DNA of 36,223 bases from Cystobacterineae bacterium (lineage in GTDB: Bacteria; Myxococcota; Myxococcia; Myxococcales; Myxococcaceae), in contig WRKR01000029.1 of NCBI GenBank assembly GCA_009782175.1, forward strand, positions 1 through 36,223, given 5' to 3'. Shown one piece after another: positions 5,986-32,281 of this stretch. Under the pieces are notes generated by a model, which ran no database searches, had not been told where the DNA came from, and saw only the letters and a program-made list of their open reading frames with translations. The stretch's first letter is position 1, and each line of letters begins with the position of its first letter. Made by a program: the position numbers and the translations under genes.

Positions 5986-6083
5986 GTCTGTGCCTCTTCC
6001 CATTCGACGAAATGCCCGAAAAAAACCTAAATACTCAAAAACCGCAATATTCAAAATAAAAGAAACACAAAAAACCCTCCCTA

Positions 6084-6190
6084 TTCAGAAAAAACGCCAT
6101 GTTCAGAAAACACACGGTGTTCAGAAAACACACGGTGTTCAGAAAACACACCGTGTTCAGAAAAACGCCGTATTCAGAAACCATGCCCTG
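6084..6190. repeat. Six-unit 18-bp tandem array between kinase and HD-GYP genes
   Basis: Six units follow each other at 6084, 6102, 6120, 6138, 6156 and 6173; five are 18 bp and one is 17 bp. Two are identical (TTCAGAAAACACACGGTG) and the rest differ at a few bases. Each central unit holds the small palindrome ACAC-G-GTGT. The array fills most of the spacer between the kinase stop (6204) and the HD-GYP start (5985). It could be a protein-binding array, a structured mRNA spacer or a decaying satellite. Confidence 0.85.
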
Positions 6191-6203
6191 TCCAAGGAGG
6201 GGC

Positions 6204-15482: not shown

Positions 15483-17183
15483 TCAATCGTCATCGTTGCT
15501 TTGTGTCAAGCCCCATTCTTTAAGACGCTTGAATAATGTAGATCTTGCAACCCCCAATTCCTTCGCCACGCGCTCCCTGTTGTTTTTATAGCGTTTTAAG
15601 GCGGCTTCAATGAGGGTTTTCTCAAAATTTTCAACCGCTTTATCGAGCGTTAGCCCTGAAGGCAGCTCTGTATTGAGAAAATTGAAGGACTGAGGGCTTG
15701 GGTTTCGTGCGGCGGGGCCATCAAATTGAATGTCTTTAATGTCAATGGAGGTACCATCTCTCAACAGGAGGGCTCTGTGGATGACGTTGCGCAACTCACG
15801 GACATTGCCGGGCCAAGGGTGAGAGAGCAGTTTTTTTTGGGCCGCAGCTGTCAAATGTACACGTTGGCCGCTGGGGGAGAATGCGCTGAGGAATGCTTCT
15901 GTGAGCATTTCCAAATCTCCCAAGCGTGCGCGCAAAGGGGGCAGGTGCAAGGGGATGACACACAGGCGATAATAAAGGTCTTCCCTGAATTTTCCTGCTT
16001 GGACTTGTTTTCCCAGGTCGCGATTGGTGGCAGAAATAATGCGGACATCCACAGCAATGGGTCGGGATGCGCCTACGCGTTTAATTTCGCCGGACTCCAG
16101 AGCGCGAAGCAGCTTGGCTTGCAAGTCCAAGGGAAGCTCTCCTACCTCATCCAGGAATAAGGAGCCTTGGTGTGCTTCTTCGAAGGCGCCTTTGCGGTGA
16201 GAAGCGGCTCCGGTGAAAGAGCCTTTTTCATGTCCGAACAACTCACTTTCGATGAGCTCTCGAGAAATGGCCGCACAATTGACGGGAATAAAAGCATTGT
16301 TTGCGCGAAGAGACAATTTGTGCACTGCCCGGGCGATGAGCTCTTTGCCGGAGCCGGACTCGCCAAAAATAGCGACGGTGGCATTGGAGGGTGCAACACG
16401 CTCCACCATTTCCAGGAGGTGGTGCATGCTTGGATCTGCGCCTATAATGCCATATTTGGTTTTGATGGAAGGAGAGGCTTTTTCTACGGGCTCAATGCAG
16501 ATGGTGGTGTCGCCAAGCCTCAGTTGCGTATATATGGGCAGCTCTGCCTCATAGATGCGGACCTTCCCCAGCCATGTGCCATTGGTAGAATGTGGATCTG
16601 CCACAATAAAGGCGCCATTGTGTTGTGTTAAGCGCAGGTGTTTTGCGGAGACATATTTGTCCTCAACAACCACGTCATTGTCTTCTGCGGAGCCGATGCA
16701 GCTGATGTCATGTGTGAGGGGAAAAACTTTTTCGCCGTTGGAGGAGGAGACGCGGATTTGCGCGGGGACATTTTCAATTTTAGAATGGGGATAAAACTGT
16801 GTACGGGGGTGCTGCTCATTGGAGCTGGTTTGTGTCCCCTGGGCGTGTTGGATATGAAAGACGGCTTGCAGTTTCCCAAAGGTGAGGATGTCCCCCTCTT
16901 TGAGAGTGGTTTCCTGGGTGAGGATGCCTTGCACTTTCGTTCCTTGTCCCGACAAGTCCTCCAGGAGATAGTGGGGGGGATGAAAACGCAGAATGGCTTG
17001 TCGCGCGGCGACACCCGGGTCCGGCAATATAACATCACAATTGCTGCCATGCCCCAGAACGGTATCCCGCGAAGCGAGCTTGACGCGCATGACTTCAACC
17101 CCCCGCCTGACAAATACGAGCTCAGCAATGTTTTGCGTCGATGGCTCGTGGAATTCTTTCAAGCCTGTCCTGATTGTTTCCAT
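15483..17183 (-). CDS. FHA-domain sigma54 transcription activator
   Basis: The product is 566 aa. Two forkhead-associated domains come first: a diverged one at about 20-112 (LGHGSNCDV) and a canonical one at about 140-232 ([21 protein letters not shown]). The AAA+ domain follows at about 243-470 with Walker A GESGSGKE (274-281), sigma54 contact loop GSFTGA (321-326, a variant of GAFTGA) and Walker B LFLDEVGE (342-349). A Fis-type helix-turn-helix ends the protein ([19 protein letters not shown]). FHA domains bind phosphothreonine, so it may respond to Ser/Thr kinases rather than a histidine kinase. It starts 59 bases after gspN, in the same direction, and may regulate the secretion operon or another sigma54 regulon. 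Confidence 0.93.
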
Positions 17184-17242: not shown

Positions 17243-18196
17243 TTATTTCATTTCCAGGCGCGAGAGAGGCCCCTGAAATTGAGCACTGCGCCATTGCGGA
17301 TTTTGCGGATCCACTGGAAGTAAACTGACGGCGGAGCCCAATATACCGAGGCGTTCGAGCAATTCGGGCTGTGCTTGAAGACGCAATGTAAAGTTACTTT
17401 GTGAGTCAGCGAGTTTTTTGTTTTTGTCCAGATGGATGTTTCCAAGCACTTCAGACTCCAATTCATGGCTTTGGGTTTTGAGCTGACTCAGTTGTATGTG
17501 TCCTTTTTTTATAGAAGCGGAAGTTTTCAAGTTTCCAAACACAATTCGAGGCAAATCCACAGGTGTTGGCTCTTTGGAGTTGGGAAGGAGAAGGGCAAGG
17601 GTTCCTTGTTTAAGCACCCACTCATTCAGCTCCATATTCCACTGTCCATGGGCTTCTGAGGCCTTTTGGTTTTTGGGAATAGAGAAAGAAATATGTGCGT
17701 GAGTTAAAACACCTTCCATATCCAATTGGGGGGTGGCTGTTCCGCTGTTGTATATTTCTGGTGAGAGCATCCATAACAAGGCAGAAAAGTTAATTTGAGA
17801 TAAGTCTATACCTTTGGCATCAATACTCATCTCCTTTGCGTTGAAGATTCCTGTTGCCAATTGGATGTTTCCCTTGGCTATTTTTATATTTGTTATGAGT
17901 TTTGAGGAGAAGAGACTGGGCCTTAAGGAGAGAGAATCCATATGGAGCTTTCCGAGCTCTATTTCAGGTTTTAAAGAGGCGGGGCTGATTTGGATTCCGT
18001 TGGCTTTAATTCCTGAAAGGGAGGGTTGGATGGAGTGGATGCTCAAAAGAATATTGGCCTGTTTGGCTTTAGCAACCAGATACTCAGAAAGGATAGGATA
18101 GGGGAATACAAAGAAGAGGCTTATAAGGAATGCGCAGGTGGTGAAGCTCAGATAGCCTATAAGTTTGAAAACAGTCTGAGAGTATTTCTTAAGCAT
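17243..18196 (-). CDS. gspN: Type II secretion system protein N
   Basis: The product is 317 aa. A transmembrane helix at about 11-33 anchors a periplasmic domain rich in short beta strands of alternating pattern (IKAKG-like units such as GIKANGIQISP and ELGKLHMDSLSL), as expected for the GspN/AsmA-like fold. Position after gspM, only three bases from its stop, is the usual place for gspN in deltaproteobacteria. It belongs to the inner-membrane platform, but its role is not well defined. Similarity to GspN is judged from architecture and context more than from strict motifs. Confidence 0.8.
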   Translation of the reverse strand: MLKKYSQTVFKLIGYLSFTTCAFLISLFFVFPYPILSEYLVAKAKQANILLSIHSIQPSLSGIKANGIQISPASLKPEIELGKLHMDSLSLRPSLFSSKLITNIKIAKGNIQLATGIFNAKEMSIDAKGIDLSQINFSALLWMLSPEIYNSGTATPQLDMEGVLTHAHISFSIPKNQKASEAHGQWNMELNEWVLKQGTLALLLPNSKEPTPVDLPRIVFGNLKTSASIKKGHIQLSQLKTQSHELESEVLGNIHLDKNKKLADSQSNFTLRLQAQPELLERLGILGSAVSLLPVDPQNPQWRSAQFQGPLSRLEMK

Positions 18197-18199
18197 AAT

Positions 18200-18745
18200 T
18201 CACGTTTTTTTCGAATAGGTGGCAACCGTTATCCAACAGGTCAACAGGTTTTGAGGGCGTTTTTCTATTCTCAGTTGTTTGATAAAGACGATGCCGGGAC
18301 CTGTTTCGCATGCTTTCAAGAAATCAACGAGGCGTTCTAAGGCCACATCGGTGAGGGTGAGTTCCACAGAGCGCTCCAGCATTTTTTCTCCCTCGATGGG
18401 AGTCCGAGGCGTAATAGAGCTGATTTCTATTTTTGCTTGTGTGGCGGCTTTTTCAACGTGGCTGGTGAGGCCCAGAGGCGGCTCTGCGAGTTTGCGTTCA
18501 AAATGTTCTCGGCGTTTTTTCCCCAAATAATAATTGTCGGTGAGTTTTTCTATTTGCTTAAGCTTCATCCTTTTGTCTGTCGTTCTCTCCTGAATGGTTT
18601 GGGCTTTGCGTGCAATTTGCAGGTGGATGAGGAGGAAGATGGCAACACAAAGCACGGCGAGCATGGCCAACAGCAGAAACTGCTCTCGACGCGTAAGCCC
18701 TAAAAAACGCTGGGTGAGGGAACGGATTTTCTCATGAAGTGCCAT
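18200..18745 (-). CDS. gspM: Type II secretion system inner-membrane protein M
   Basis: The product is 181 aa from ATG 18745, which has AGGAG seven bases upstream and overlaps the end of gspL by 14 bases. A single helix at about 22-43 (FLLLAMLAVLCVAIFLLIHL) is followed by a coiled region and a small ferredoxin-like periplasmic domain. It pairs with GspL in the assembly platform that links the cytoplasmic ATPase to the pseudopilus. A longer frame starts upstream but would overlap gspL by over 100 bases. Confidence 0.88.
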   Translation of the reverse strand: MALHEKIRSLTQRFLGLTRREQFLLLAMLAVLCVAIFLLIHLQIARKAQTIQERTTDKRMKLKQIEKLTDNYYLGKKRREHFERKLAEPPLGLTSHVEKAATQAKIEISSITPRTPIEGEKMLERSVELTLTDVALERLVDFLKACETGPGIVFIKQLRIEKRPQNLLTCWITVATYSKKT

Positions 18746-20297
18746 GGTTAAACTCCTGAGGCGGAGGGCAATGCAATTTAATGTCGAGGGGAAAATTCTT
18801 TTTGAGGCCGTCGCGGGATTTTTCGACTGTGCCTTCTTCAATTTCAGCGACGCAGGGAATGGTCTTTAAGGCTGTTTTGAGAGCGTCCATATCGAGTTTT
18901 TGGTCTGCAGTGCTTTTCAATCTGATGCGTTCTGGCTGAATTAAAATTTGCTCAAATTGGATGTCAACCTGGTTAGAAACATGTTGAATGAGGTGGGCCA
19001 GAAAATCTGCTGCGGATGGGTGAAAAAGTTCAGGCGCGAGGTTTGAGCTGCTGCTTAAAAGCTCTTTCGCCAGAGCATAGCTGCGCTCGCATTTCCCAAG
19101 GACGCGTGTGGTGAGTGTGCATAGCGCGTCATCGACGTGTCGCTCATTGGCTTGCAGAAAGAAGTTGTGGGTTATTCCGCCACCTAAAAACAGCACCACT
19201 GCGCACAGGGCGAAAATGCTCAAGGCTTTCAATTTGTCTTTTAAAAAGTCAAACTCGCTTTTATAGGCCAGCTCTTTCTGGCGAAAATTAAACCGACGTG
19301 AGCGGGGTGCGGCTGACTGATAGGAAGCCAGCAAAGAAGCGACTTGGCCTGCAGCCGGAGGCAAGGCTTCTTTGAAGCCGCTCAAAGGCAAAAGCTCCAC
19401 GGGCAAAGCGAGGGCATTTGATAAATAAGAGCTGATGCCTTGGAGCTGAGAGGTTCCTCCGGTGAGATAGAGGAGCTCAACAGGTTCTTGCCCGTGCGCC
19501 TCTCGCATTTTGAGGAGAATGCGCAATTCTCTTTCAACGGGAAGCAAAGCTTGCTGCATAATTTCTGCAGCTTTGTGTGCGGCGGGTGGGTGCTCATTGG
19601 ATGGAAACAAGGTGCCATGTCTTTCTTTCCATGCAGCGGCTTCTTGTTCAGAAATGTTGAAGGCGTTGGAAAGCGCGCTTGTTATTTCTTTGCCTCCGGC
19701 TGGAAATACGCGCGCTGTGTCACAACTGTTGGAGGCGTTAATTGAAGCGAAGCAGCAGCGCTCGTGCCCCAAATCCACGATGGCAAAGTTTTTGGGCAGG
19801 GGTTGGTTTTTTCGTCGAGCAGGCGAAGAGGCCAATGCCTTCAGTTGAAGAGCGGGGTGTGCAATCCACTTGGGTTCAACAGAAAGCCCTGAGAGTTGTT
19901 GGATCCACGCCATAACCTCTTGGCGCAGGGCAATTCCGACCAGGAGCTGCTTGCTGTTGATAATCAGCTGATAGTCAAAGGCGACATCTGCCATATCCAT
20001 GGCTGAAACAGTTTCTATTTCAAACCCCAGAGTGGCCTCAATCTTCTTCGGGTCAGCAAAAGGAAGTGAGAGCTGATGTGTTGCAATGGAAGTGCCTGGC
20101 AATGAAAAGAAGATTTGATCAACACCATATATTTTAGCTCCAAAAACGCGATGGAGTGCGTTTGCCAGGCTGTTGTGAGAAGAGTCCTGGTTCGAAAATT
20201 CTTCAAAGCGTATGGATTGAATGGTCTTCCGTATAGACTCAACGGTAGCCAGCTTGATGCTATAAGCGCCGACATCTATAGCAAGGATTTTTGCCAT
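18732..20297 (-). CDS. gspL: Type II secretion system protein L with a PilM-like domain
   Basis: The product is 521 aa; GAGGA lies eight bases before the ATG. Residues 1-330 form an actin-like cytoplasmic domain that keeps PilM features: IDVGAYSIKLA near the start, a central IVDLGHERCCF (173-183), GGKEIT (201-206) and LTGGTSQLQG (278-287). A transmembrane helix lies at 357-377, followed by a periplasmic ferredoxin-like domain resembling PilN/GspL. In Vibrio-type systems the cytoplasmic part is more diverged, so this form reads as PilM joined to PilN. It binds GspE and GspM. The start is three bases after the gspK stop. Confidence 0.9.
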   Translation of the reverse strand: MAKILAIDVGAYSIKLATVESIRKTIQSIRFEEFSNQDSSHNSLANALHRVFGAKIYGVDQIFFSLPGTSIATHQLSLPFADPKKIEATLGFEIETVSAMDMADVAFDYQLIINSKQLLVGIALRQEVMAWIQQLSGLSVEPKWIAHPALQLKALASSPARRKNQPLPKNFAIVDLGHERCCFASINASNSCDTARVFPAGGKEITSALSNAFNISEQEAAAWKERHGTLFPSNEHPPAAHKAAEIMQQALLPVERELRILLKMREAHGQEPVELLYLTGGTSQLQGISSYLSNALALPVELLPLSGFKEALPPAAGQVASLLASYQSAAPRSRRFNFRQKELAYKSEFDFLKDKLKALSIFALCAVVLFLGGGITHNFFLQANERHVDDALCTLTTRVLGKCERSYALAKELLSSSSNLAPELFHPSAADFLAHLIQHVSNQVDIQFEQILIQPERIRLKSTADQKLDMDALKTALKTIPCVAEIEEGTVEKSRDGLKKNFPLDIKLHCPPPQEFNHGTS

Positions 20298-20300
20298 GGC

Positions 20301-21524
20301 TTATTCCTCTCGATAATAAACAATCTGCCCCAATGGCTCTTTGTCCATTCGAACGACAGCGGTAAGCGTACGTTTGACTGTTCCAGAAGTCCCCAGGGAG
20401 TGGATGCGGAAAGTGGAGCTGCTGTCTCCCAGATAACGCTGGTTTTGCGTGTTGGCCGTGATGGCGCTGTTGGTGGCTATTCCTGCCGCCTTGAGCAATT
20501 CAACGAAGTCTTGAACGGAGAGCGCAAAGCCTGCCATGACTTTCAACTGACGAATATGTTCGATTAAGCCTTCAACAAAAAATGGATTTTGCAGCCGGGG
20601 ATCGGGTTTGAGTGGATCCGCGACGCTGCGGATGGCCAACTCCAGCAGGACAGGGTCGTCCGTGTTGATGTTGAGGCGGGAATTGATGCTGGGGAAAACA
20701 GTGAGGCGATCTCCAAAAACAGCCATAAACCGGTCATCAATCCCATGAACCATATATAACTCATCCAAGCTGTCAAACCGTGCGTTTTTGGCATGGTAGT
20801 GAGGGACATATTTAGAGCTATAATAATAATTTTCATCTGAAAACCCATCGAGAAAAGGGGGGCCTTGTCCTGACAAGTTGAGGGTAGAAGCCGATGTATT
20901 TTCATCAATCCAGTCGCGAATATTTTGGATGATTTCTGTTGGCGTGATGGGGGAGGAGCCTGACTCCAGAGGCTCATAAATGAAGTTATATTTTTTGTCA
21001 CCAATCAAGGAGAGGAGCTGTGCCAAGGCGATGCTTGTTTTGAGGTCGGGCGCGTCGAGTTGATTTAAATTGAGACGCTCTTCTTCATCGCTGATGGTGA
21101 CGTCAAAACACGTTGAAGCAAGGCCATCGGCTTGTGGGGTTTCGTCGAACTCCCAAAGGAGATTTGTTAAATAACAATCAATTTTGGCAAGCCTCCACAA
21201 CTGTATAGAAAGGCTTTGAGGCATATATCCACCAAAGTCATTGGTGGTGGTGTTGGTGATGCCCAGCAGCCCACTCAAGCTTGGAATTTTAATTTGCTCT
21301 ATTTGTTTTTGGAGAGCCAACATCAATCTGGAAAACTGAATGCCGCTGCGAGCGTGGTAGTGAGCTTTCAATTCATCGCGCTGGTTGCGCGCGAGGATTA
21401 ATTCCACAGAACCACGATAGGCCATGTCTTGGATGAAAATGGTCAGGATGGTTATGCCGACCAAGACAACGATCAGCGCGGCGCCGCGAGGTGAAATTCT
21501 TTTCTTTCGACGAGAATTTTTCAT
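20301..21524 (-). CDS. gspK: Type II secretion system minor pseudopilin K
   Basis: The product is 407 aa. The prepilin leader ends RISPRG and the mature protein begins AALIVVLVG; position 5 is Val rather than Glu, as is known for GspK, which caps the pseudopilus tip with GspI and GspJ. A large globular domain follows with the acidic segment FDVTISDEEERLNLNQLDAP typical of GspK. The start overlaps the gspJ stop as ATGA, so translation is coupled. Confidence 0.93.
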   Translation of the reverse strand: MKNSRRKKRISPRGAALIVVLVGITILTIFIQDMAYRGSVELILARNQRDELKAHYHARSGIQFSRLMLALQKQIEQIKIPSLSGLLGITNTTTNDFGGYMPQSLSIQLWRLAKIDCYLTNLLWEFDETPQADGLASTCFDVTISDEEERLNLNQLDAPDLKTSIALAQLLSLIGDKKYNFIYEPLESGSSPITPTEIIQNIRDWIDENTSASTLNLSGQGPPFLDGFSDENYYYSSKYVPHYHAKNARFDSLDELYMVHGIDDRFMAVFGDRLTVFPSINSRLNINTDDPVLLELAIRSVADPLKPDPRLQNPFFVEGLIEHIRQLKVMAGFALSVQDFVELLKAAGIATNSAITANTQNQRYLGDSSSTFRIHSLGTSGTVKRTLTAVVRMDKEPLGQIVYYREE

Positions 21525-22171
21525 TCATACCTCGATAACTCTCTCGTCAGAGTGAGTTGGACTTGCGTCACATACCTCATGGCAGTGCCACTTTCATTGA
21601 GGGTGATGGCAATTTTTATACGTGAGGGAAGAGAAGATTTTCTTTCTGCTTTTCTGGTGTCCCATTCATCAACCCAGTTTTTTTGAAAGGTGTCCCAATA
21701 GGAGAATTCAAGCTGATCCACATTTTCAAGGAAGACATTTTCTGTTCCTCCTCCCTCGTCAACGCGTCCATCCAGGACTGTTTTCTGGCGGCGCATAATG
21801 TCCTTTTGTCCTTTTGAATTCTGAAGTTGATATTCCACAAGCATTTGATCAGACTCTTTGGCATCTTGGTAGAGGCGTTGATGGGCGAATGTGGTGAACA
21901 ACAACTTGTCTTTGGTGCCGACGAAGTTGGTTGGGCGCCCATAAGCATCCTGATAGCGACGGATGTCATATCTGTCGCTGATGAAGGATGAGCTTAATTC
22001 GCGGCATAACCGAGAGAAAGCAACGCGCAAAGAGCGGGACGTTTCAGCATTTTCTTCGAGAATTTCAGATGAATTGATGATGGCAGAAAATGCGGAACCC
22101 ATGGACAAACTGATGATGGATAAAAGCGCAATGGAAACCATGAGCTCAATTAAAGTTAGCCCTTTTTTCAT
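21521..22171 (-). CDS. gspJ: Type II secretion system minor pseudopilin J
   Basis: The product is 216 aa. The short leader MKKG is followed by LTLIELMVSIALLSIISLS, a type IV prepilin signal with Glu5. The globular part contains RLCRELSSSF, and later VDQLEFSYWD, as in GspJ. Start and stop codons overlap with neighbours (ATGA at both ends), showing tight coupling with gspI and gspK. Confidence 0.93.
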   Translation of the reverse strand: MKKGLTLIELMVSIALLSIISLSMGSAFSAIINSSEILEENAETSRSLRVAFSRLCRELSSSFISDRYDIRRYQDAYGRPTNFVGTKDKLLFTTFAHQRLYQDAKESDQMLVEYQLQNSKGQKDIMRRQKTVLDGRVDEGGGTENVFLENVDQLEFSYWDTFQKNWVDEWDTRKAERKSSLPSRIKIAITLNESGTAMRYVTQVQLTLTRELSRYE

Positions 22172-22827
22172 CGAACCGTCCTCGTTCCCGGGTTGAGGTT
22201 GCCGATATGAGGAGGGACACCTGTGGGCAGCATGGTGGACATTTGCTGGGAGAGAACGTGGGTTCTGATTTCAAAGCTTTCTTTCTCTTTCTTTCCCCGG
22301 TGAGACCATTCAATTTTGAGGCGAATTTCTCGAACTTGTTGGGTGAGGGTTTGCACCATTTGAGCAAATTGTGTTTGCAAAGGCGCCAGAAGAGGAGCGA
22401 ATGCGGACATGGAGGTTGAAGCTGCCGAGCCACTGGGCATGAGGCTTGAGAAGATGGAGCTCGTATCCAGGGTTTGCTCAAGGGGAAGGCCGGCAAAACT
22501 TGCCAGAAGTTGCTCTGGGGATAGGTTTTCTACTTTGGGAACCAATATGCTAAAGCTCCATTCATACTCAGGCCATCCTTCTTCAGAAAAATCTCCCCTC
22601 TCATCCTCTACATCTGTTGCAGAAAACCCGTCTATTTGCAGTTGTTGTTCCACATCCGCCATTTTTGAGCGAGCCAGCAAAGTAGCGACGGTGAGCTTGC
22701 GCGCATAACTTTGAGAATCAGCTGCGGATGAGCTGATTTGAAACAAGGACACGAGGACGACGCCCAAAATGCCCAGAGCCACCACCATTTCAAGCAAGGT
22801 GAAAGCTTGCTTTTTTTTCATGCTCAT
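22168..22827 (-). CDS. gspI: Type II secretion system minor pseudopilin I
   Basis: The product is 219 aa from ATG 22827, which overlaps the gspH stop as ATGA. A prepilin helix begins after MSMKKKQA with FTLLEMVVALGILGVVLVS. The residue before the predicted cleavage site is Ala instead of the usual Gly. Known prepilin peptidases prefer Gly but some accept Ala. The protein is longer than typical GspI (about 120-130 aa) because of a Ser/Ala-rich insertion around residues 110-150 (FSSLMPSGSAASTSMSAFAP). Confidence 0.88.
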   Translation of the reverse strand: MSMKKKQAFTLLEMVVALGILGVVLVSLFQISSSAADSQSYARKLTVATLLARSKMADVEQQLQIDGFSATDVEDERGDFSEEGWPEYEWSFSILVPKVENLSPEQLLASFAGLPLEQTLDTSSIFSSLMPSGSAASTSMSAFAPLLAPLQTQFAQMVQTLTQQVREIRLKIEWSHRGKKEKESFEIRTHVLSQQMSTMLPTGVPPHIGNLNPGTRTVR

Positions 22828-23441
22828 ATGGGTGGCTCCAGTGCTTCTGGAATAATTTGAACTTTGCCGGTGAGTCCTGAGACGACGAGCGTCCATGCAT
22901 TGTCAGATTGTCTGACAACAATTTGTGCATTCTCCGTGAACCCTTGCGGAAAAAAATAAAGATAGGCCTGCCCTTCGTTTTTAGCTTTGAGTTGGTGTTC
23001 TGTCCAAACGGACAAAGTCACTGCGGATGGCAGGGTGCGAGGTTTGGTTTCTTGCTCTGAGAAGTTTGTGTGCAAGAGCAAGGCTTCAATTTTTTGGCGC
23101 TCTTCTTTTTCTGTTTCTGTTTGAGGGGCTATGCTTTGTTTTAATTCCAGCTGTTGGGTGCTTTCTCGGCGTATCGCCGTGGCCTTTTCAGAGCATTCTG
23201 TTTGATAGCGGGTTTCGGATGCTGTGTTGTTATCGTCAGGAAGAGAAAATGCCAGTCTACACGTGCGTCCTGTCAGAGCGGATGTATCATAGAGCGTTCG
23301 AATGGCGCCAACCAACTCGTTGGTTACCGCTTTTGCTTGAGTGCCTGTGAGTGCTCCAATGCCCACGACGGTTAGTCCAAGAATAACCGCGATGATGGCC
23401 ATGGAGACCAAAAGCTCAATCAACGTCATGCCACGAGACAC
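22824..23441 (-). CDS. gspH: Type II secretion system pseudopilin H
   Basis: The product is 205 aa starting at GTG 23441, with GGAG five bases upstream. The leader SRG is followed by MTLIELLVSMAIIAVILGL, a prepilin helix with Glu5. A C-terminal GspH-like beta domain includes GRTCRLAFSLP and the late strand segment GQAYLYFFPQGFTENAQIVV. A polar linker of about 50 residues rich in Glu and Gln sits in the middle. The gap to gspG is 24 bases. Confidence 0.9.
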   Translation of the reverse strand: MSRGMTLIELLVSMAIIAVILGLTVVGIGALTGTQAKAVTNELVGAIRTLYDTSALTGRTCRLAFSLPDDNNTASETRYQTECSEKATAIRRESTQQLELKQSIAPQTETEKEERQKIEALLLHTNFSEQETKPRTLPSAVTLSVWTEHQLKAKNEGQAYLYFFPQGFTENAQIVVRQSDNAWTLVVSGLTGKVQIIPEALEPPI

Positions 23442-23465
23442 ACAAACTCCAACGGCTGGAAATTT

Positions 23466-23870
23466 TTATTTGGAGTCTTTGCTTGAAATATCCGCATTAT
23501 CTCCCTCGCCTCCTTGTGCTTTATCTGCCCCATAGGAGACGACGACGGGCTTGCCCTGCTCCAAGAAATAGAGATAGTCGCTTCCCCATGGATCTTTCGG
23601 GATTTTCTTTAAAACCCCCGCGTCAACCAATGCTGGAAAACCTGCTGCTACGTCAGGATAATTTCCTCTCTGGACATAATACATGTCGAGCGCATTCATG
23701 AGAGTCCCAATGTCAATTTCTGCTACTCTCTTTTTGGATCCTTCCATCTGTGGAATGACAGCAATGGCCACAAGACCCATGAGAATGGCTATCATGGCAA
23801 TAACGACGATAATTTCGATCAGCGTCATGCCTTTTTGAAATTGATGCAGATGTGTCGTTCGTTTTTTCAT
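23466..23870 (-). CDS. gspG: Type II secretion system major pseudopilin G
   Basis: The product is 134 aa with a 14-residue leader ending QKG, then MTLIEIIVVIAMIAILMGLV. The mature part has the conserved GspG features: GNYPDVAAGFPALVDAG, then PKDPWGSDYLY and the C-terminal VSYGADKAQGGEGDNADI loop, which matches the calcium-binding loop of GspG. It is the main subunit of the pseudopilus. GGGGAG lies nine bases before the ATG. The next gene upstream is the 38-codon ORF. Confidence 0.96.
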   Translation of the reverse strand: MKKRTTHLHQFQKGMTLIEIIVVIAMIAILMGLVAIAVIPQMEGSKKRVAEIDIGTLMNALDMYYVQRGNYPDVAAGFPALVDAGVLKKIPKDPWGSDYLYFLEQGKPVVVSYGADKAQGGEGDNADISSKDSK

Positions 23871-23890
23871 GTGAAGAAGACTCCCCAGTT

Positions 23891-24007
23891 TTAAGTGAAA
23901 AATGCAATTCCTAGACTAGACAGAACGAAAATAAGCCCGAGCAAAACTCCCAACAACACGCGTTTGAGCCATAAGTCCGCTTTTGAAAATTGAGGTGTTG
24001 TTGGCAT
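23891..24007 (-). CDS. 38-residue single-helix membrane microprotein between gspF and gspG
   Basis: The ATG at 24007 shares its first base with the gspF stop (TAATG), the same arrangement that joins gspE to gspF. The frame runs 38 codons to a TAA at 23891-23893. The N-terminal 15 residues are polar and basic (MPTTPQFSKADLWLK), and the rest is one hydrophobic helix (VLLGVLLGLIFVLSSLGIAF). Without it there would be an unexplained 136-base gap in an otherwise overlapping operon. I know of no standard gsp component of this size at this place. It may be a small accessory subunit of the inner-membrane platform near GspF, which is inference from position. Confidence 0.7.
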   Translation of the reverse strand: MPTTPQFSKADLWLKRVLLGVLLGLIFVLSSLGIAFFT

Positions 24008-25254
24008 TATCTCACCAAGGTGTTGAGAGCATACATGGCTTGCAAAACAGCAACGGCGACGAAGAAGACGACGCCTCCCATGGCTAGAATGATGATGGGT
24101 TCCAAAATGGATGTGAGAGAGCCAATGCGGATGTCTGATTGTTGCTCATAGCTTTCTGCGATGCTGAGCAACATTTCTTCCAGTTTTCCGCTGCGCTCGC
24201 CTACGGCAATCATGTGAAAAACCAGGGGTGGGAAGTGTCCTGAGCGTTTTAAGGGGGCGGAGATGCTTTCGCCTTCGCGGACAGACTCACGCACGTCTTT
24301 AATGACATTGGAGATGACGGAATTGGGGATGACATTTTGAACAATTTCCAGTGCGTTAAGGACAGGCACACCGCTTTTGAGCAAAGTGGAAAGTGTTCGA
24401 GCAAACCGAGCAACAGTAACCATCCGGACAAGGTTTCCAACCAAGGGCAATTTTAATTGCCATCGATGCCAAATGGGCTGACCGGATTTGCTTTTGGTCC
24501 ATTTGAGGGCGGCGAAAACAAGCAGGGCGGCGGTTGGAAAAATGATGAACCAATAATTTTGGAAGGTATTGGAGATGGACATCAATATTCGCGTTGTGAG
24601 CGGGAGCGCGGAGTGCATGTCTTCAAACAGCTTGGCCACCTTGGGGACGACATACGTCATCAACACAGAGAGGATGAGGATGCCCATGACAGCCATGATG
24701 ACAGGATAGGTGAGGGTGGCTATAATTTTTTGTTTAAGGCGTGCTTGCCCTTCGGAGAACTCGGCTAAACGCAGGAGCACAGCGTCCAAGTCGCCTGAAT
24801 GCTCTCCTGCGTGAACCATGTTGATATAGAGCTCCCCGAAGTCCTTCTTGTGGGCTTCAAGGCCATTGGCCAACGAAGCACCTTCATTCACACGTTGCTT
24901 GACGTCAGACAGAATGCGTTTGATGTTTTCTTCATGGGCCTGATCGACAAGTGCAGAGAGGGCCTCCACCAAAGCGACGTCCGCAGCAAGCAATGTTGCC
25001 AATTGGCGTGTTAAAGTAGCCAGCTGGTCGATGGAGAGTTTGGATTTAAATATTTTTCCAAGTTTGACTTCTCTCTGAAGCATGCCTGCTGCAGCTGAGG
25101 GGCTTTGCGTATTTTTCTCTTTGCTGCTGACGTCCGTTAAAAAAATTCCTTCTTTGCGCAGAAGCATTCTCAAAGCCCGTGGCGAGTCCGCATCTCTTAG
25201 CCCACGCGTTTCTTTCCCTTCCTGGGTGAGTCCTTTGAATTCAAAAACAGGCAT
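24007..25254 (-). CDS. gspF: Type II secretion system inner-membrane protein F
   Basis: The product is 415 aa with the two tandem T2SSF cytoplasmic domains, each followed by membrane helices (about 170-195, 220-245 and 385-405). The signature LARTLSTLLKSGVPVLNALEI and the parallel first-domain LATLLAADVALVEAL are visible. GspF is the central polytopic platform protein. Its ATG shares one base with the gspE stop, and its stop shares one base with the next small ORF. Confidence 0.95.
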   Translation of the reverse strand: MPVFEFKGLTQEGKETRGLRDADSPRALRMLLRKEGIFLTDVSSKEKNTQSPSAAAGMLQREVKLGKIFKSKLSIDQLATLTRQLATLLAADVALVEALSALVDQAHEENIKRILSDVKQRVNEGASLANGLEAHKKDFGELYINMVHAGEHSGDLDAVLLRLAEFSEGQARLKQKIIATLTYPVIMAVMGILILSVLMTYVVPKVAKLFEDMHSALPLTTRILMSISNTFQNYWFIIFPTAALLVFAALKWTKSKSGQPIWHRWQLKLPLVGNLVRMVTVARFARTLSTLLKSGVPVLNALEIVQNVIPNSVISNVIKDVRESVREGESISAPLKRSGHFPPLVFHMIAVGERSGKLEEMLLSIAESYEQQSDIRIGSLTSILEPIIILAMGGVVFFVAVAVLQAMYALNTLVR

Positions 25255-27020
25255 TAGGTGTCTTCCTGTGTGACGGAAAGGACTTCTGCAATGCTGGTTT
25301 CTCCCATAGCCACCTTTGCCGTTCCATCATCGAGCAATGTTGTCATGCCATTGAGAATGGCTCTTTTTTTGATTGCACTCGAGTCGGTGCTTTTGAGGAC
25401 AATTTGTCGAATTTCGTCATCGACCAAAAGAAGCTCATAGATGCCTGTGCGTCCGCGATAGCCACTTTTGTTGCAGGTGGAACAAGAAGACGCCTTATAG
25501 ATGGGCTTGTTTTGGCTAAGCATCAAAAAATTTTCAAGAGAGACACCCAATTTTGCAACTTCTTCTTCCGTAGGCTCATAGGCGATGCGGCACTCTGTGC
25601 AAAGCCGGCGAACAAGTCGTTGGGCGAGGACGGTGGTGAGGGAGCTTGCGACGAGAAAAGGCTCAATGCCCATTTCAACCAGGCGGATGACGGCACCTGC
25701 GGAGTCATTGGTGTGCACCGTAGAGAGGACGAGGTGGCCCGTCAGGGAGGCTTCAATGGCGATTTGGGCTGTTTCTCTGTCGCGGATTTCGCCCACCATG
25801 ATGATGTCAGGGTCTTGCCGGAGGAAGGAGCGAAGGCCAGCGGCGAAGGTGAGGCCTATTTTGGGTTGGATGGCCATTTGGCCTATGCCTGGAAGCTGAT
25901 ATTCCACAGGGTCTTCCACCGTAAGAATGTTGACATCCGGTGTGTTCAGGCGATTGAGGGCGCCATAGAGGGTGGTGGTTTTCCCTGAACCTGTGGGCCC
26001 CGTGACGAGAATGATGCCATGGGAGCGCCGAATGGCTTCATCTATGGGGCCCAAAATGGATGGGCCCATGCCAATTTCGCTCAAGTCAAGAATGGTTCCG
26101 GATTTGTCCAGCAGACGCATGACGATGCGTTCACCGAAGGCGGTGGGGATGACGGACACGCGGATGTCGATGTCACGTCCGGCAAGGCGGATGCGAATGC
26201 GACCATCCTGAGGGAGGCGTTTTTCGGCAATGTTAAGGCGCGCCATAATTTTGATGCGGCTTAAGATGGAGTTTTGATAGCGCTTGGGTGTTTTAATAAT
26301 TTCCTGAAGCACCCCATCGACGCGAAACCGAATGGTGACACCTTGCTCCATAGGCTCGATGTGGATGTCGCTGGCGCGCTCCTTGGCTGCGCGAAACAAG
26401 AGCGAGTTAACCAAACGGATGATGGGCGCTTCGTCGCCGGCATCCAACAGGTCCTGCGTCTCTTCGAGCTCATGCCCAACCATATCTAAGTCTTGAGCCT
26501 CCATTTCATCGACCACTTCTTCAGCCGCATTCATGGAACGCTCGAAGCTGAGGTTAATGGCATCCACAATGGTGTTGGGGGTGGCGATATAGATGTTGAG
26601 AGCGGAGTTCAGGCAGAGCCTGGCTTGATCTAAAGCGGAGAAGTCCAGCGGATTGGCGACGGCGATGGCGATTTTGTCGCCTTCTTTATGCAGGGGGACG
26701 AGCACGGCTTGCTTGGCAAAGTTGATGGGAATGAGTTTGACCAACTCATAATCAACGGTATTTTTAGAAAGCTCTTCTAAAAATGGATAGCCCAGCTGAA
26801 TGCTTAAGGCGCGTCCGAGTTGCTCTGGAGCGATGGCCTTCATTTCAAGGAGTATTTCTCCGAGGAACTGGCCCTTGTCTTTTTGAAGCAGGAGTGCTTG
26901 AGAAACCAGCTCTCCGGGAACGCCATATTCAGCTTGAAGAATTTCCCCCAGAGAGCTTCCCTGGGCCAAGGGGGGTCCAGGAGGAGAAGCTAAGGCAGAG
27001 GGGAGTGGCGGTGGATTCAT
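25254..27020 (-). CDS. gspE: Type II secretion system ATPase E
   Basis: The product is 588 aa. A proline-rich start (MNPPPLPSALASPPGPP) is followed by the GspE N-terminal domain (about 55-165). The motor domain has Walker A GPTGSGKT (341-348), the Asp box around VEDPVEYQLPG, Walker B DIIMVGEIRD (405-414) and the His box LSTVHTND. Two CxxC pairs, CTEC (474-477) and CSTC (513-516), form the zinc site of GspE. It powers pseudopilus growth. Start and stop overlap gspD and gspF. Confidence 0.97.
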   Translation of the reverse strand: MNPPPLPSALASPPGPPLAQGSSLGEILQAEYGVPGELVSQALLLQKDKGQFLGEILLEMKAIAPEQLGRALSIQLGYPFLEELSKNTVDYELVKLIPINFAKQAVLVPLHKEGDKIAIAVANPLDFSALDQARLCLNSALNIYIATPNTIVDAINLSFERSMNAAEEVVDEMEAQDLDMVGHELEETQDLLDAGDEAPIIRLVNSLLFRAAKERASDIHIEPMEQGVTIRFRVDGVLQEIIKTPKRYQNSILSRIKIMARLNIAEKRLPQDGRIRIRLAGRDIDIRVSVIPTAFGERIVMRLLDKSGTILDLSEIGMGPSILGPIDEAIRRSHGIILVTGPTGSGKTTTLYGALNRLNTPDVNILTVEDPVEYQLPGIGQMAIQPKIGLTFAAGLRSFLRQDPDIIMVGEIRDRETAQIAIEASLTGHLVLSTVHTNDSAGAVIRLVEMGIEPFLVASSLTTVLAQRLVRRLCTECRIAYEPTEEEVAKLGVSLENFLMLSQNKPIYKASSCSTCNKSGYRGRTGIYELLLVDDEIRQIVLKSTDSSAIKKRAILNGMTTLLDDGTAKVAMGETSIAEVLSVTQEDT

Positions 27021-29749
27021 GAGTCTGCCGCTCCTGCCTCTTCGAGAAGAGGGGGCATTTCTGAAGGCGTGGGCGTTATTTCCAGGGAGGAGGGGGCGGC
27101 ATTTTCAGGAAGAGACGGTGTTTCTGTTGGGGAGGGGTTTGCGGGCGCCGTTGGATTTGTTTTGGGCTCTGCCATGGGGGAGATAAGGCGTTCGCCGTCC
27201 AGCCCTTTGCCTCCATGCTCAAACTTGCGCAGCTCCCGGTTGGTGATTTGAGCCACTCGAGCCATGGGGCCAGGTTTTCGAGCATAGTCGATGAGCAAGT
27301 CATAACCCGTGGCTGCTCCATAAAACTGTTCAACAAAACTTTGTCGCTCTTTGAGCTTGCGCTCTAAAATTCTTCTAAAGTCACTGGAGTCCCGGATGAT
27401 GTATGGCGTGAGAAACATCAACAAGTTGGTTTTTGTTTTTGTTTTCGTTTGGCTTCGAAAAAGGTGGCCCAAAATAGGAATGTCTCCAAAGAAAGGGACT
27501 TTGGAAACGTTTTCAAGCGTTCGGTCACGCATGAGTCCGCCGATGACCACCGTTTCTTGGTCTTTGGCGACGACAGTGGTTTTGGCAATCCGTTTAGAGG
27601 TGGTGGGGCCAAGCACCGGATCAATAGAAGTAATATCCTCAATTTGTTTGTTAATAACGAGGCGTATATAATCACTCTCATTGACTTGTGGTTTGATGGT
27701 GAGTTTGAGCTGCACGTCCTGGCGGTTAATTTGAGCTCCTCCCAACCCACCGAGGCCGCCCAGGAGGCTGGCGGCGGAGCCTGTGGAGCCAGAAGTGAGG
27801 TTTGTCAGCGAAGCGCTGCTGAAGGGGTTGATGGCATAGCCTGCCTGCATGGGGACATTTTGGCCGACGACAATTTCTGCTTCCTCGTTGTCGAGCGTGA
27901 GCAAGTGAGGTGTGGAGAGCACATTCACATCCGAATCGGATTGCAAGGCGTTGATGATGATTCCGAAGGCAGGGATGCTGATGCCAAGGTTGGAGAGTGC
28001 AGGGATGTTCAGGTCGGGCCCTTGGAGGCCTGCGAGGAAGCCGCCATAGTTGGCGAGGCTGAGAAGGCTGAACGAGGGGGGCAGGCCTTGCTTATAGTTT
28101 GTGCCTACAACGCCTGGCAAAGTGCCTCGGCTTGTTTCAATGCCAAAGCCTTGGTGGGCTTGGATTCCGAATTCCATGGAGCGATCTAAGCTGACTTCCA
28201 TGATGACGGCTTCGACGAAGACTTGCCGGCGACGGACGTCTAATTTTTCAATGACCCGGACCAAGGAGCGATAATCGGCTTGGTTAGCCGTAATAACCAG
28301 CGCATTGGTGGATTTGTCGGCGGCAATGCGCACTTCTCCCTGGAAAGTGTCTGTGGTGGAGCCGCTGCGAGACATTCCTGAACGAGGAGGCGCACTGCTT
28401 CCAGGCCGTCGTGTTTGGGGGGATGTGGATGTGGATGTTCCGGAAGTTTGAACGAAGGCTTGCAAGGTTTGGGCAATTTCTTCTGCATTTGCATTTTCCA
28501 GGGGATAGACGTGGATGCTGCCTTCTCCGGCGATGGGGATATCGAGTTCACGGATGAGGGCTTGAATGGATTCCAAAGCGGCGGGGCTGGCGATGACAAT
28601 GAGTTTGTTGGTGCGCTCATCCGGAATCAATTGGGTTAAGGTGGAGGGAGCGGAGGGCTCTCCGGAGGGGCTTTGAGCAGAGGAAGAAGGGGGATGGATA
28701 GGAGGAGCTGTTCTGCCTGAGCTGCCTGAGCTGCCTGAGCGTCTGTTGGCTGTTTGAGAAGAGTCGAAGAGTTTTTCGACTTTTTCTGCGATGCTGTTGG
28801 CTGTTGCATATTGGATTTGGATGGCGCGAATTTCTTCTCCGGAAGGGCGGAGGTCCAATTTTGCGAGGATTTTTTCAAGCCGTGAGAGGTTAGAAGCCAA
28901 GTCGTTCACAATAAGGCCGTTGGGAGGAACGGAGACCACATCCCCTGAAGGTGAAACGAGTTGCTGCAAAACAGTGCGAGCGTTTTCGGATTCAATATAT
29001 TTGAGGCGGAACATTTTGGTAATCATCTGGTCCGCAAAAACCCCTGAAGTTTCAGCATCCGTAAACGTTGGAATGGGGTGATTTTTGGCGCGTTGTTTTT
29101 CGACAATTTTTTGGAATTTTCCCTGCCTATAGACGGCAAAGCCATTGGCATCCAAAGAGGCGAGGAAAGCGGCATAAAACTCATCGGCGCTGACTTCTGC
29201 TTTGCCGTTTTCAGGTCCAATAATGGATATTTTCCCGCGGATGTTTTCAGGCAAAATGAAAGTTCTGCAGGTGGCGTCTGAAACGGTTTGGACGAGTTTG
29301 TCTATTTCTACTTTGTCAAAATAGATATTGAAGCGAGCCTGTTTTCTTATTTCCTCGCAAGTGGGTGTTGAGGTTTGCAACAAGGTTGAGGCGATGGGAG
29401 GCGTTTGGCTTGTACGAATGGCGGTAGAGAGCTCTGTGCTGGGGCTGGGTGGCCTGGGAGGTGGCGGAGCAGGAGGAGGCGGCGGAGCAGGAGGCGGAGG
29501 CGGAGCAGGGGGAAGCGGAGCAGGAGGGGCAGGGAGTGGAGGAGGGGCGAGCTGCCGGGGAGGTGGGGCGTCAGGGGGTTGATTGCGGAGCTGCTCTCTC
29601 TGCATGCGTTGACGTGCCGAGCGGAGCTGTCCTCTTGGGGAAAGGCTGTTTTCTGTTTCAGGTGGAGCACTGGCCTCAGCCTCAGGTTGAGCACTTGCAC
29701 TGTGTGCGGACAATAGGAGCAAAAGAGGAATGGCGGTGAGTTGTCTCAT
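27017..29749 (-). CDS. gspD: Type II secretion system secretin D with proline-rich N-terminal linker
   Basis: The product is 910 aa and forms the outer-membrane channel. Residues 1-20 are a signal peptide (cleavage after SASA). Residues 57-104 are almost pure Pro and Ala (many runs of PPPPPAPP), an unusual insert before the N0 domain at about 138-215. N1, N2 and N3 follow to about 505, with Ser-rich inserts near 330-370 and 434-468. The secretin domain is 506-790 (VFVEAVIMEVSL, ATTVV-type strand, VIGGLMRDR, VPFFGDIPILGHLF). A Pro/Glu/Thr-rich tail (860-910) replaces a recognisable pilotin-binding domain. It overlaps gspC and gspE by four bases each. Confidence 0.96.
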   Translation of the reverse strand: MRQLTAIPLLLLLSAHSASAQPEAEASAPPETENSLSPRGQLRSARQRMQREQLRNQPPDAPPPRQLAPPPLPAPPAPLPPAPPPPPAPPPPPAPPPPRPPSPSTELSTAIRTSQTPPIASTLLQTSTPTCEEIRKQARFNIYFDKVEIDKLVQTVSDATCRTFILPENIRGKISIIGPENGKAEVSADEFYAAFLASLDANGFAVYRQGKFQKIVEKQRAKNHPIPTFTDAETSGVFADQMITKMFRLKYIESENARTVLQQLVSPSGDVVSVPPNGLIVNDLASNLSRLEKILAKLDLRPSGEEIRAIQIQYATANSIAEKVEKLFDSSQTANRRSGSSGSSGRTAPPIHPPSSSAQSPSGEPSAPSTLTQLIPDERTNKLIVIASPAALESIQALIRELDIPIAGEGSIHVYPLENANAEEIAQTLQAFVQTSGTSTSTSPQTRRPGSSAPPRSGMSRSGSTTDTFQGEVRIAADKSTNALVITANQADYRSLVRVIEKLDVRRRQVFVEAVIMEVSLDRSMEFGIQAHQGFGIETSRGTLPGVVGTNYKQGLPPSFSLLSLANYGGFLAGLQGPDLNIPALSNLGISIPAFGIIINALQSDSDVNVLSTPHLLTLDNEEAEIVVGQNVPMQAGYAINPFSSASLTNLTSGSTGSAASLLGGLGGLGGAQINRQDVQLKLTIKPQVNESDYIRLVINKQIEDITSIDPVLGPTTSKRIAKTTVVAKDQETVVIGGLMRDRTLENVSKVPFFGDIPILGHLFRSQTKTKTKTNLLMFLTPYIIRDSSDFRRILERKLKERQSFVEQFYGAATGYDLLIDYARKPGPMARVAQITNRELRKFEHGGKGLDGERLISPMAEPKTNPTAPANPSPTETPSLPENAAPSSLEITPTPSEMPPLLEEAGAADS

Positions 29750-30636
29750 GGAGCGCGAATGTTATAGGTTTTTTTGAGGGGACTTCCGTTGCGTTCAATT
29801 TCAAGGTCGATGCGGGAGGAGTCTTTGAGTTTTGCATAGAGCTCCAGTGCTTTTTCGGGGCTGTTCATGTCATAGCCATTGATGCGTTTGACGATGTCGC
29901 CATTTTGCATGCCTAATTTTTGATAAAAGGAGTTGGGGCGAATGGCATGGAGCCTATACCCTTGCGAAGCGCCGTCCTTAAAGGCGGGCATAATCCGTGC
30001 CTGCGTTGAAATTTCATTGAGGTTGCCGAGCGTTTTTTCCAGGTCGTTGCGCGGAATTTCATAAGTGTTGGGAGCCAGCTCACGGATGTTGAAAGTGGCA
30101 TCCGCGCGGCTGGTTTCTGGTGAAGGCACAGGGTTTGGAGCTGCTGCCGGCGTGTTGGCGTCGATGTATTCGCGTTGATTGTTATGGACGACAATGACGC
30201 GCTCACGCTCAATGGCAATAACGGAAGCGCCTTCAATTTCGCTTCCGATGGCAAAACTCATCGGCTTTTCTGTCCCCACTTGTATAGAAGCCAGCGACCA
30301 CCGGGGAGGAAAGGCAATGAGTGTCCCCAGCAGCCGCGCATTGATGCTGCTCCTGGAGAGTATATTGCTCTCATCAGCGCTTTCCTGCGGAGCGAGGCTG
30401 TCGGTTGTCAACTCTATGCCCAGCAGCCTGGCAAAAAATACAATATCCAATTGAGGCTTGGTGGGTGTGAATTGGGGATTGGCGAGGGCCGCAGGTTGTG
30501 CAACCTCAGGCGCCAGAGGTGTTATTTGGAGGTTGGCGGCAATAATAAAAGAGGCCAGCCTGGCCAGAAGCCAGCCTATGCCTCCAAGGAAAAGGAACCA
30601 TACAAGCCAGAAGTTTTTTTTGAATAGAAACTCCAC
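29746..30636 (-). CDS. gspC: Type II secretion system protein C with PDZ domain
   Basis: The product is 296 aa. GTG 30636 is the only reasonable start in frame; no Shine-Dalgarno sequence precedes it. A short basic stretch leads into a transmembrane helix (about 9-35). The homology region (about 95-160, INARLLGTLIAFPPRWSLAS and IGSEIEGASVIAIE) contacts the secretin, and a PDZ domain (about 212-292, LGMQNGDIVKRINGYDM) ends the protein. GspC connects the platform to GspD and helps select substrates. It is the first gene of the operon and directly follows a sigma54-type promoter. Confidence 0.93.
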   Translation of the reverse strand: MEFLFKKNFWLVWFLFLGGIGWLLARLASFIIAANLQITPLAPEVAQPAALANPQFTPTKPQLDIVFFARLLGIELTTDSLAPQESADESNILSRSSINARLLGTLIAFPPRWSLASIQVGTEKPMSFAIGSEIEGASVIAIERERVIVVHNNQREYIDANTPAAAPNPVPSPETSRADATFNIRELAPNTYEIPRNDLEKTLGNLNEISTQARIMPAFKDGASQGYRLHAIRPNSFYQKLGMQNGDIVKRINGYDMNSPEKALELYAKLKDSSRIDLEIERNGSPLKKTYNIRAP

Positions 30637-30648
30637 AGCTTGGGTTGA

Positions 30649-30664
30649 TGCAATTGTAATGCCA
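30649..30664 (-). promoter_or_regulatory. Sigma54 (-24/-12) promoter for the gsp operon
   Basis: On the minus strand TGGCATTACAATTGCA matches the sigma54 consensus TGGCAC-N5-TTGCW at all strongly conserved positions, with GG and GC ten bases apart. The predicted start of transcription is near 30638, two bases before the gspC GTG at 30636. The gene for an NtrC-type activator ends about 100 bases upstream. Confidence 0.75.
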
Positions 30665-30765: not shown

Positions 30766-32166
30766 TCAATCCGCCTGGGGTGGTGTAGGTTTTTCCAGGA
30801 GCTCATTTTCATCCGTAGCGAGTTTGCGATAGATGGTGCGTGTGGCGATGCCCAGCAGGTGGGCGGCGAGGTTTTTGTCTCCGCGTGTATAGCGCAGGGT
30901 TTCGTTGATGACGCGGCGCTCAATTTCTTCCATGGAGGTGCCGATGGGGATGAGGATTTGGCTGGCATAGCCTTTGGGGCCTTTGCCTATGCTTTCGGGC
31001 AAGTCAGCCAAGCCGACGAGGTTGTGGCGGCATAAGACGACGGCGCGTTCCATGGCGTGTTCAAGCTCCCTCACATTGCCTGGCCAGGAATGGTTTTCGA
31101 GTGCTTGGAGGGCTTCGGGTGTCAGCCCTTGGAGGGGTTTGTTGTTTTTGAGGCAAAAGCGTTTGAGGAAATACTCTGCCAGCAAGGAAATGTCTTCACG
31201 CCGTGAAGCCAGGGAAGGCAGATGCAACTCGACGACGTTGAGGCGATAGAACAAGTCTTCCCTGAAGCGTCCTTCCTGGACTTCCTTGTGCAGGTTTTTG
31301 TGGGTTGCGGCGATGAAGCGCACGTCGACTTTAATGGATTGAGTTCCCCCCAGGCGCTCTATTTCTCCTTCTTGCAAGACGCGCAGCAGTTTCACTTGTG
31401 CGGTGGGGCTCATATCCCCCACCTCATCCAGGAAGAGGGTACCTTTGTTGGCGCGCACAAAGCGCCCATCTCTCTTGCTGACAGCCCCCGTATAAGCGCC
31501 GCGCTCCACGCCAAAGAGCTCTGCTTCCAGGATGGACTCAGGGAGGGCGGCGCAGTTGACGGCGACGAAGGGGTATTTGGCGCGAAGGGAGAAGCCGTGC
31601 AAGGCGCGTGCGGCCAACTCTTTGCCTGTTCCGGACTCTCCGGTTAAGAGGACAGAGGCGGAGGAGGGCGCAATTTGCAGCAAGCTGTCATAAAAAGCGC
31701 GGAAGGCGGGAGATTGGCCCATCAGCGCTTTAGAGTCCAAGACGCCAAGGCGAGCGCGCAGGCTTTGGTTTTCTCTAACGAGGGCTTGTTTTTCGAGTGC
31801 TTTTTCAACAGCGCGGACGAGGGAGTGGCGTTTGAGCGGTTTGGTAATAAAGTCATAAGCGCCCTCTCTCATGGCGGATACGGCGGTTTCTACGGTTGCA
31901 TAGGCTGTCATGAGGATGACTTCAACATCGGGTCGCATGGAGCGCGCAGCGCGCAGCAGCTCTTGTCCATCCACGCCGGCCATCATGAGATCGCTAACAA
32001 TAACGCTCACTTCAGGACGCAAAAGCCATTCCAGAGCTTCTTTGCCCTGGGTGGTTGCGAGGGTTTGAAAACCTTCTCTTTGGAATATTTTGCAAACAGA
32101 GTCCAGGTTGGCCTTGTCATCGTCGACAATGAGCACTGTTGAAGAAGGTATAGAGTCCGCATCCAT
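30766..32166 (-). CDS. NtrC-family sigma54-dependent response regulator
   Basis: The product is 466 aa from ATG 32166; no clear Shine-Dalgarno sequence is visible, so the start is judged from the receiver domain. The receiver has VLIVDDDKAN (11-20) and phospho-acceptor Asp59 (VSDLMMAG). The AAA+ domain has Walker A GESGTGKE, sigma54 contact loop GAYTGA (variant of GAFTGA) and Walker B LFLDEVGD. A Fis-type helix-turn-helix ends it (NLAAHLLGIATRTIYRKL). No cognate kinase is adjacent. Its position just ahead of a sigma54 promoter and gspC suggests it activates the secretion operon. Confidence 0.93.
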   Translation of the reverse strand: MDADSIPSSTVLIVDDDKANLDSVCKIFQREGFQTLATTQGKEALEWLLRPEVSVIVSDLMMAGVDGQELLRAARSMRPDVEVILMTAYATVETAVSAMREGAYDFITKPLKRHSLVRAVEKALEKQALVRENQSLRARLGVLDSKALMGQSPAFRAFYDSLLQIAPSSASVLLTGESGTGKELAARALHGFSLRAKYPFVAVNCAALPESILEAELFGVERGAYTGAVSKRDGRFVRANKGTLFLDEVGDMSPTAQVKLLRVLQEGEIERLGGTQSIKVDVRFIAATHKNLHKEVQEGRFREDLFYRLNVVELHLPSLASRREDISLLAEYFLKRFCLKNNKPLQGLTPEALQALENHSWPGNVRELEHAMERAVVLCRHNLVGLADLPESIGKGPKGYASQILIPIGTSMEEIERRVINETLRYTRGDKNLAAHLLGIATRTIYRKLATDENELLEKPTPPQAD

Positions 32167-32281
32167 GGTGAGCTGATTTATGTTAGCATAGCAGCAAAGA
32201 GGGTTGTTTGGGCGGCCTAAAACAAGGTGTTGCAAAACAGGAGGGTGTGGTTTGGGGAAGCTGTGCTAGGAAAGGAAAGTG

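Follow-up and report, generated by a model that had tools for sequence, protein, structure and literature searches.

Does the gap between gspF and gspG in the type II secretion system (T2SS) operon of a Cystobacterineae bacterium hold a gene, and what might the product of so short a frame do beside the secretion machinery? Here, we address this question in a window of 36,223 nucleotides (the whole stretch of DNA that was analysed) and in the corresponding loci of other Myxococcota, and we consider what is known of the equivalent gene in Myxococcus xanthus.

A short frame in the T2SS operon

The operon lies on the minus strand, with gspC at its start (30636) and gspN at its end (17243). Its GspL is PilM-like, and gspN was assigned from its position and its match in Myxococcus. 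The features needed here are the following.

17243..30636, minus strand: T2SS operon with gspC, D, E, F, the microprotein gene, G, H, I, J, K, L, M and N (Pfam matches; gene order against a Myxococcus genome)
24007..25254, minus strand: gspF, T2SS inner-membrane platform protein (Pfam T2SSF, E 5e-63)
24011..24016, minus strand: GGTGAG, Shine-Dalgarno-like, in the last gspF codons and 3 nt 5′ of the microprotein ATG (read from the sequence)
23891..24007, minus strand: gene for a single-transmembrane microprotein of 38 residues (ORF, profile match behind gspF, interval survey, dN/dS 0.06-0.14)
23897..23983, minus strand: codons for residues 9-37, predicted to form the single helix, which holds the signature residues L29 and G33 (AlphaFold2 and alignments)
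23881..23886, minus strand: GGGGAG, probable gspG ribosome-binding site, within the 20 nt that separate gspG from the microprotein gene (read from the sequence)
23466..23870, minus strand: gspG, major pseudopilin (Pfam T2SSG, E 1.5e-19)

Most neighbouring genes are tightly packed: gspC/D, D/E, E/F, H/I and I/J overlap, and gspG and gspH are 24 nt apart. As the initial annotation had pointed out, the gspF-gspG interval, of 136 nt, is the sole sizeable gap within gspC-gspJ. It holds a frame of 38 codons (24007..23891, minus strand) with the product MPTTPQFSKADLWLKRVLLGVLLGLIFVLSSLGIAFFT, whose stop lies 20 nt from gspG. The ATG of this frame and the TAA stop of gspF share one A in a TAATG overlap, and the ATG of gspF overlaps the stop of gspE at 25254 in the same way; the parallel between the two junctions had also been drawn from the first reading and is confirmed in the sequence. 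The GGTGA upstream of the ATG is complementary to the extended anti-Shine-Dalgarno sequence, and translation of the microprotein in the window is probably coupled to that of gspF via TAATG. Base-shuffling of the interval produced an ORF of 30 codons or more with comparable hydrophobicity in 29 of 2000 trials (1.5%); taken by itself the window is therefore suggestive, and it is conservation that decides.

Genes for sigma-54 activators border the operon. An FHA-domain sigma-54 activator is encoded at the operon end (15483-17183, minus strand), a place that it keeps in Myxococcus. At the other end, the sigma-54-promoter-like sequence TGGCATTACAATTGCA (30649-30664, minus strand, two mismatches) lies just 5′ of gspC and is adjoined by a sigma-54 activator gene at 30766-32235; the frequency of sigma-54-like matches in the window is not above chance expectation.

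Distribution among the Myxococcota

GspF was found in 60 relatives and the intervals behind gspF were then surveyed, revealing a short ORF with one hydrophobic helix behind gspF in the window's own family. A profile built from 40 homologues was run on 145 genomes of the order; it matches the window, whose own sequence is among the 40 rows, with E 7.6e-10 at 23897-24007, directly downstream of gspF and on the same strand. Among the Myxococcaceae (f1), 93 of 96 genomes have one strong match each (E 3e-8 to 4e-22), amounting to 93 of the 94 with an intact gspF; the position immediately behind gspF was spot-checked by comparing coordinates with those of gspF. Two of the exceptions, G004 and G011, are without an intact gspF match. 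In the third, the Archangium-type genome G092, contig L124 runs from the gspF stop through 11 nt to the gspG start, which shows a clean recent deletion of the microprotein gene. Four more families (f2, f3, f6 and f9) also have the microprotein behind gspF, with weaker but clear matches.

The microprotein is absent from f4, f5 (Anaeromyxobacteraceae), f7 and f8. In f4, the Anaeromyxobacteraceae and f7, which retain a T2SS despite this absence, gspG abuts gspF in most loci. Within the same class but another order, family f10 has a distant member in L197 (E 4e-5) and, in L199, a similar ORF that the profile did not score; interval surveys of other Myxococcota classes did not find the microprotein. 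With f10 scored as having the gene, its presence and absence on the GspF tree require three changes. The simplest reading of this pattern is that the gene arose once in the class Myxococcia and was lost a few times afterwards, with the rooting of the tree uncertain.

The slot between gspF and gspG has other occupants elsewhere. In L181 (f8), it holds a 92-residue, probably two-helix ORF with no obvious relation to the microprotein, and in f11, a family of a different Myxococcota class, the occupant in L160, L161, L162, L153 and L201-L205 resembles lspA, the gene for signal peptidase II. A separate oddity is L110 (BNCN01000003.1), titled Comamonas sp. KCTC 72670, which carries a Myxococcus-like T2SS and falls inside Myxococcus on the GspF tree; this assembly is probably mislabelled or contaminated.

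How the gene is placed differs on its two sides. Across 144 loci, a count that includes repeats of the same genomes, its start overlaps the gspF stop in 58 and lies no more than 21 nt away in 143, the last being at +44, whereas its distance to gspG ranges from -7 to 171 nt in the same loci. The tight start and the variable spacing to gspG tie the gene to gspF and not to gspG. It is encoded in the gsp operon and inherited with it, at a fixed place behind gspF across five families. A core subunit would be present in every T2SS; since the microprotein is absent from Anaeromyxobacteraceae, f4, f7, other classes and L124, it is at most an accessory part of the T2SS and, judged by this distribution, is dispensable in evolution.

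Coding evidence and selection

Against three species of the window's genus, whose GspF is 83-85% identical to the window's, the microprotein has dN/dS values of 0.06, 0.11 and 0.14, compared with 0.09-0.12 for gspF. Between the window and L002 there are 12 synonymous and 3 non-synonymous changes (binomial p = 1.7e-5). In other close pairs with a reliable ungapped alignment, pairs with dN above 1 being ignored for their misaligned N-termini, pN/pS is 0.10-0.88 and usually above that of gspF; dN/dS across all distant pairs is uninformative, owing to saturation and the ungapped misalignment of differing N-termini. On these ratios, constraint outside the window's genus is real but looser than that on gspF. 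GC by codon position is 0.70/0.54/0.86 in 88 distinct sequences, which is the coding pattern in these GC-rich genomes.

The initial annotation had staked its proposal on a conserved frame in relatives, and such a frame is what the Myxococcaceae, the four further families and the dN/dS values reveal; it also came through a check of relatives for stops or frameshifts. The comparative evidence thus strongly supports the ORF as a real conserved gene for a single-transmembrane microprotein inside the T2SS operon.

Two explanations lose their ground here. That the ORF is accidental, lying in promoter or other non-coding DNA, might have been suggested by the nearby sites within gspF of Myxococcus (a proposed sigma-54 promoter and Nla28 sites), but this is refuted by conservation across the order and by selection, and its probability is close to nil: the gap usually closes where the gene is absent, and those promoter sites are inside gspF, not in the ORF. 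A remnant of an earlier gene in the slot, such as the first helix of lspA, would share slot, strand and a hydrophobic start with the f11 gene, but a remnant should not be under purifying selection, and a hhalign profile comparison with the f11 LspA-like proteins gave a probability of 0.1%; with no profile similarity, LspA ancestry is largely refuted and must be judged very improbable.

A family of predicted single-helix proteins

Members of the family have 30-87 residues, with a variable N-terminus, one hydrophobic segment in every case and a tail of 0-43 residues. They share the signature W-[IVL]-Q-R...L...VG..LY: the core typically starts with D-R-W-[IVL]-Q-R and continues into a helix with an invariant Leu, a nearly invariant Gly and often an LY end. 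Mean column identity across families is 22-32%. AlphaFold2, run with 45 aligned sequences, predicts one helix at residues 9-37 with a mean pLDDT of 86.7. The window protein itself combines one transmembrane helix and a basic N-flank with the L29 and G33 core.

Lysine and arginine number on average 2.4 before the hydrophobic segment versus 1.35 after it, and the N-flank is the richer in 52 of 88 members. The basic N-terminus and single hydrophobic helix described at the outset are thereby borne out, with a moderate charge bias. As positive charge is richer before the helix, the N-in orientation is likelier, and the N-terminus of the microprotein is probably cytoplasmic, with the C-terminus facing the periplasm.

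Searches of Pfam and NCBIfam with the window protein and 40 homologues returned scattered weak matches and no convincing family, and a profile search of the PDB returned a single chance match (E 0.16). The pseudopilin signal of GspG/H/I/J/K, in which Glu at +5 precedes the hydrophobic helix, occurs in none of 84 distinct members. The family is uncharacterised, lineage-specific and T2SS-linked.

Comparison with known systems

CydX, KdpF and AcrZ are single-helix accessory subunits, often encoded beside the machine that they serve. The microprotein resembles them in size, in its one helix and in its encoding beside a machine, but the partners differ, and the Pfam, NCBIfam and PDB searches detected no homology to subunits of this type. 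Nearer at hand, GspC, GspL and GspM are likewise single-pass inner-membrane proteins of the same operon. Unlike them, the microprotein has no soluble domain and no Pfam match, and it is not one of the three, as the true C, L and M are present elsewhere in the window operon. By gene position it can be likened to MshF of the MSHA pilus, encoded between the GspF-like mshG and mshB, though MshF, compared by description, is longer and belongs to a different system. mshF is the last gene of the first MSHA operon, ahead of the pilin genes starting with mshB (PMC4624765).

The equivalent gene in Myxococcus xanthus

Strain AM003 of M. xanthus has the microprotein gene (L116). MXAN2514 is listed as GspD and MXAN2505 as GspK (PMC3222651). 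From D to K, the Myxococcus genome has E, F, the microprotein, G, a second GspG-like gene, H, I and J, and since these eight genes fill the eight tags 2513-2506, the microprotein would be MXAN_2511. PMC9765219 describes a 10-gene T2SS operon from MXAN2511 that is controlled by Nla28 and induced by starvation; the microprotein gene to gspN in Myxococcus is exactly ten genes, a second independent count for the same assignment. Furthermore, the sigma-54 site and Nla28 half-sites printed there match the gspF 3′ end of M. xanthus AM003 and relatives exactly, at -73 to -57 and -187 to -82 from the gspF stop, respectively. By locus-tag count and site mapping, the orthologue of the window ORF is very probably MXAN_2511, the first cistron of the published operon, so that the initial description of the frame as unannotated was probably wrong for M. 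xanthus.

The sigma-54 site upstream of MXAN2511 is a prediction in PMC9765219, and its conservation may partly reflect conserved GspF codons. The two operons differ in this respect: the site proposed for the MXAN_2511 operon was not found at the gspF 3′ end in the window. A function for the MXAN_2511 peptide is not described in the open-access literature searched, the accessible part of PMC9765219 included. According to PMC9765219, an insertion in MXAN2510, which by locus-tag count would be gspG, delays aggregation, reduces viable spores to <0.1% and halves soft-agar swarming.

The second GspG-like gene follows gspG in Myxococcus (L116, M. xanthus, 5946-6401; also L226, Myxococcus G024). It has a T2SSG domain (E 7e-16) and an N-terminus with no recognisable prepilin signal, and it is absent from the window.

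A proposed role on the inner-membrane platform

We favour, with reasonable though not high confidence, an accessory subunit of the T2SS inner-membrane platform that is specific to this lineage, crosses the membrane once and probably partners GspF; the fixed position, the predicted helix and co-inheritance with the operon fit such a subunit. A small platform component had been the main suggestion of the initial annotation. It is a reasonable one that fits this evidence, while the association itself is inferred. In this proposal, the peptide would sit in the membrane in the orientation suggested by charge, its short basic N-terminus on the cytoplasmic side and its C-terminus reaching the periplasmic face. 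It would add one more helix to the membrane-spanning portion of the platform, most likely packing against the GspF trimer. The packed helix would then make the platform more stable or adjust how it works with the motor GspE and the pseudopilins; GspF as partner and this stabilising or adjusting role are inferred.

By modelling and cross-linking, PulF, the GspF of Klebsiella, is a trimer in which TMS1 and TMS3 line a channel and TMS2 is peripheral (PMC10790770). GspF positions 199 and 203 in TMS1 stand out when compared with presence of the microprotein gene, as post hoc picks with about three state changes on the tree; at position 199, almost every lineage that has the gene carries Met or Leu, and most of those lacking it carry Phe. 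Both are suggestive candidate contact sites. Modelling GspF and the peptide as one natural read-through product was rejected: with the end of GspF expected in the periplasm and the start of the peptide in the cytoplasm, a short linker would impose an incorrect hairpin.

Many single-pass microproteins act as regulators, and the protein might accordingly be regulatory rather than structural, for example by controlling how GspF is turned over or how pseudopilins are loaded, or by signalling to the neighbouring FHA/sigma-54 activators; a regulator of GspF/GspG had also been put forward in the initial annotation. Loose conservation and lineage losses suit a modulator more than a core part, and FHA and enhancer-binding-protein genes flank the operon in the window. 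The fixed place behind gspF, often overlapping, favours instead a stoichiometric partner, and beyond a short variable tail there is no soluble domain to carry a signal; we regard a regulator as somewhat unlikely.

A cis-acting leader is disfavoured, with a low probability. Translation of the ORF would then mainly control translation of gspG and downstream genes or transcript stability, the peptide sequence being of minor importance. The ORF does sit just 5′ of gspG, and in Myxococcus it would be first on the transcript from the intragenic sigma-54/Nla28 promoter that PMC9765219 proposes in the gspF 3′ end. However, selection is purifying at the amino-acid level, residues and helix are conserved over five families, and gspG has its own Shine-Dalgarno sequence. 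Neither the RNA structure nor the fixed spacing to the next gene that mark a leader peptide was found: the window has no Rfam family and RNA folding no better than shuffles, and spacing to gspG is variable.

Implications

The microprotein reveals a protein family linked to the T2SS that is missing from curated domain libraries, probably because its members are so short. A bolder version of the platform proposal, which we hold to be unlikely as a whole, is that the T2SS of Myxococcia has an additional stoichiometric one-helix subunit on the GspF trimer that controls the proposed ion channel or pseudopilin loading and can be made independently of GspF, from an internal promoter induced by starvation, which would retune the platform in development. 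A natural, lineage-specific one-helix companion encoded directly after gspF would offer genetic access to the platform, and to how GspF passes the work of the motor to the pseudopilus, in the tractable and harmless M. xanthus, in which insertion in the neighbouring MXAN2510 (gspG on our count) is reported to disturb aggregation, viable spores and social motility.
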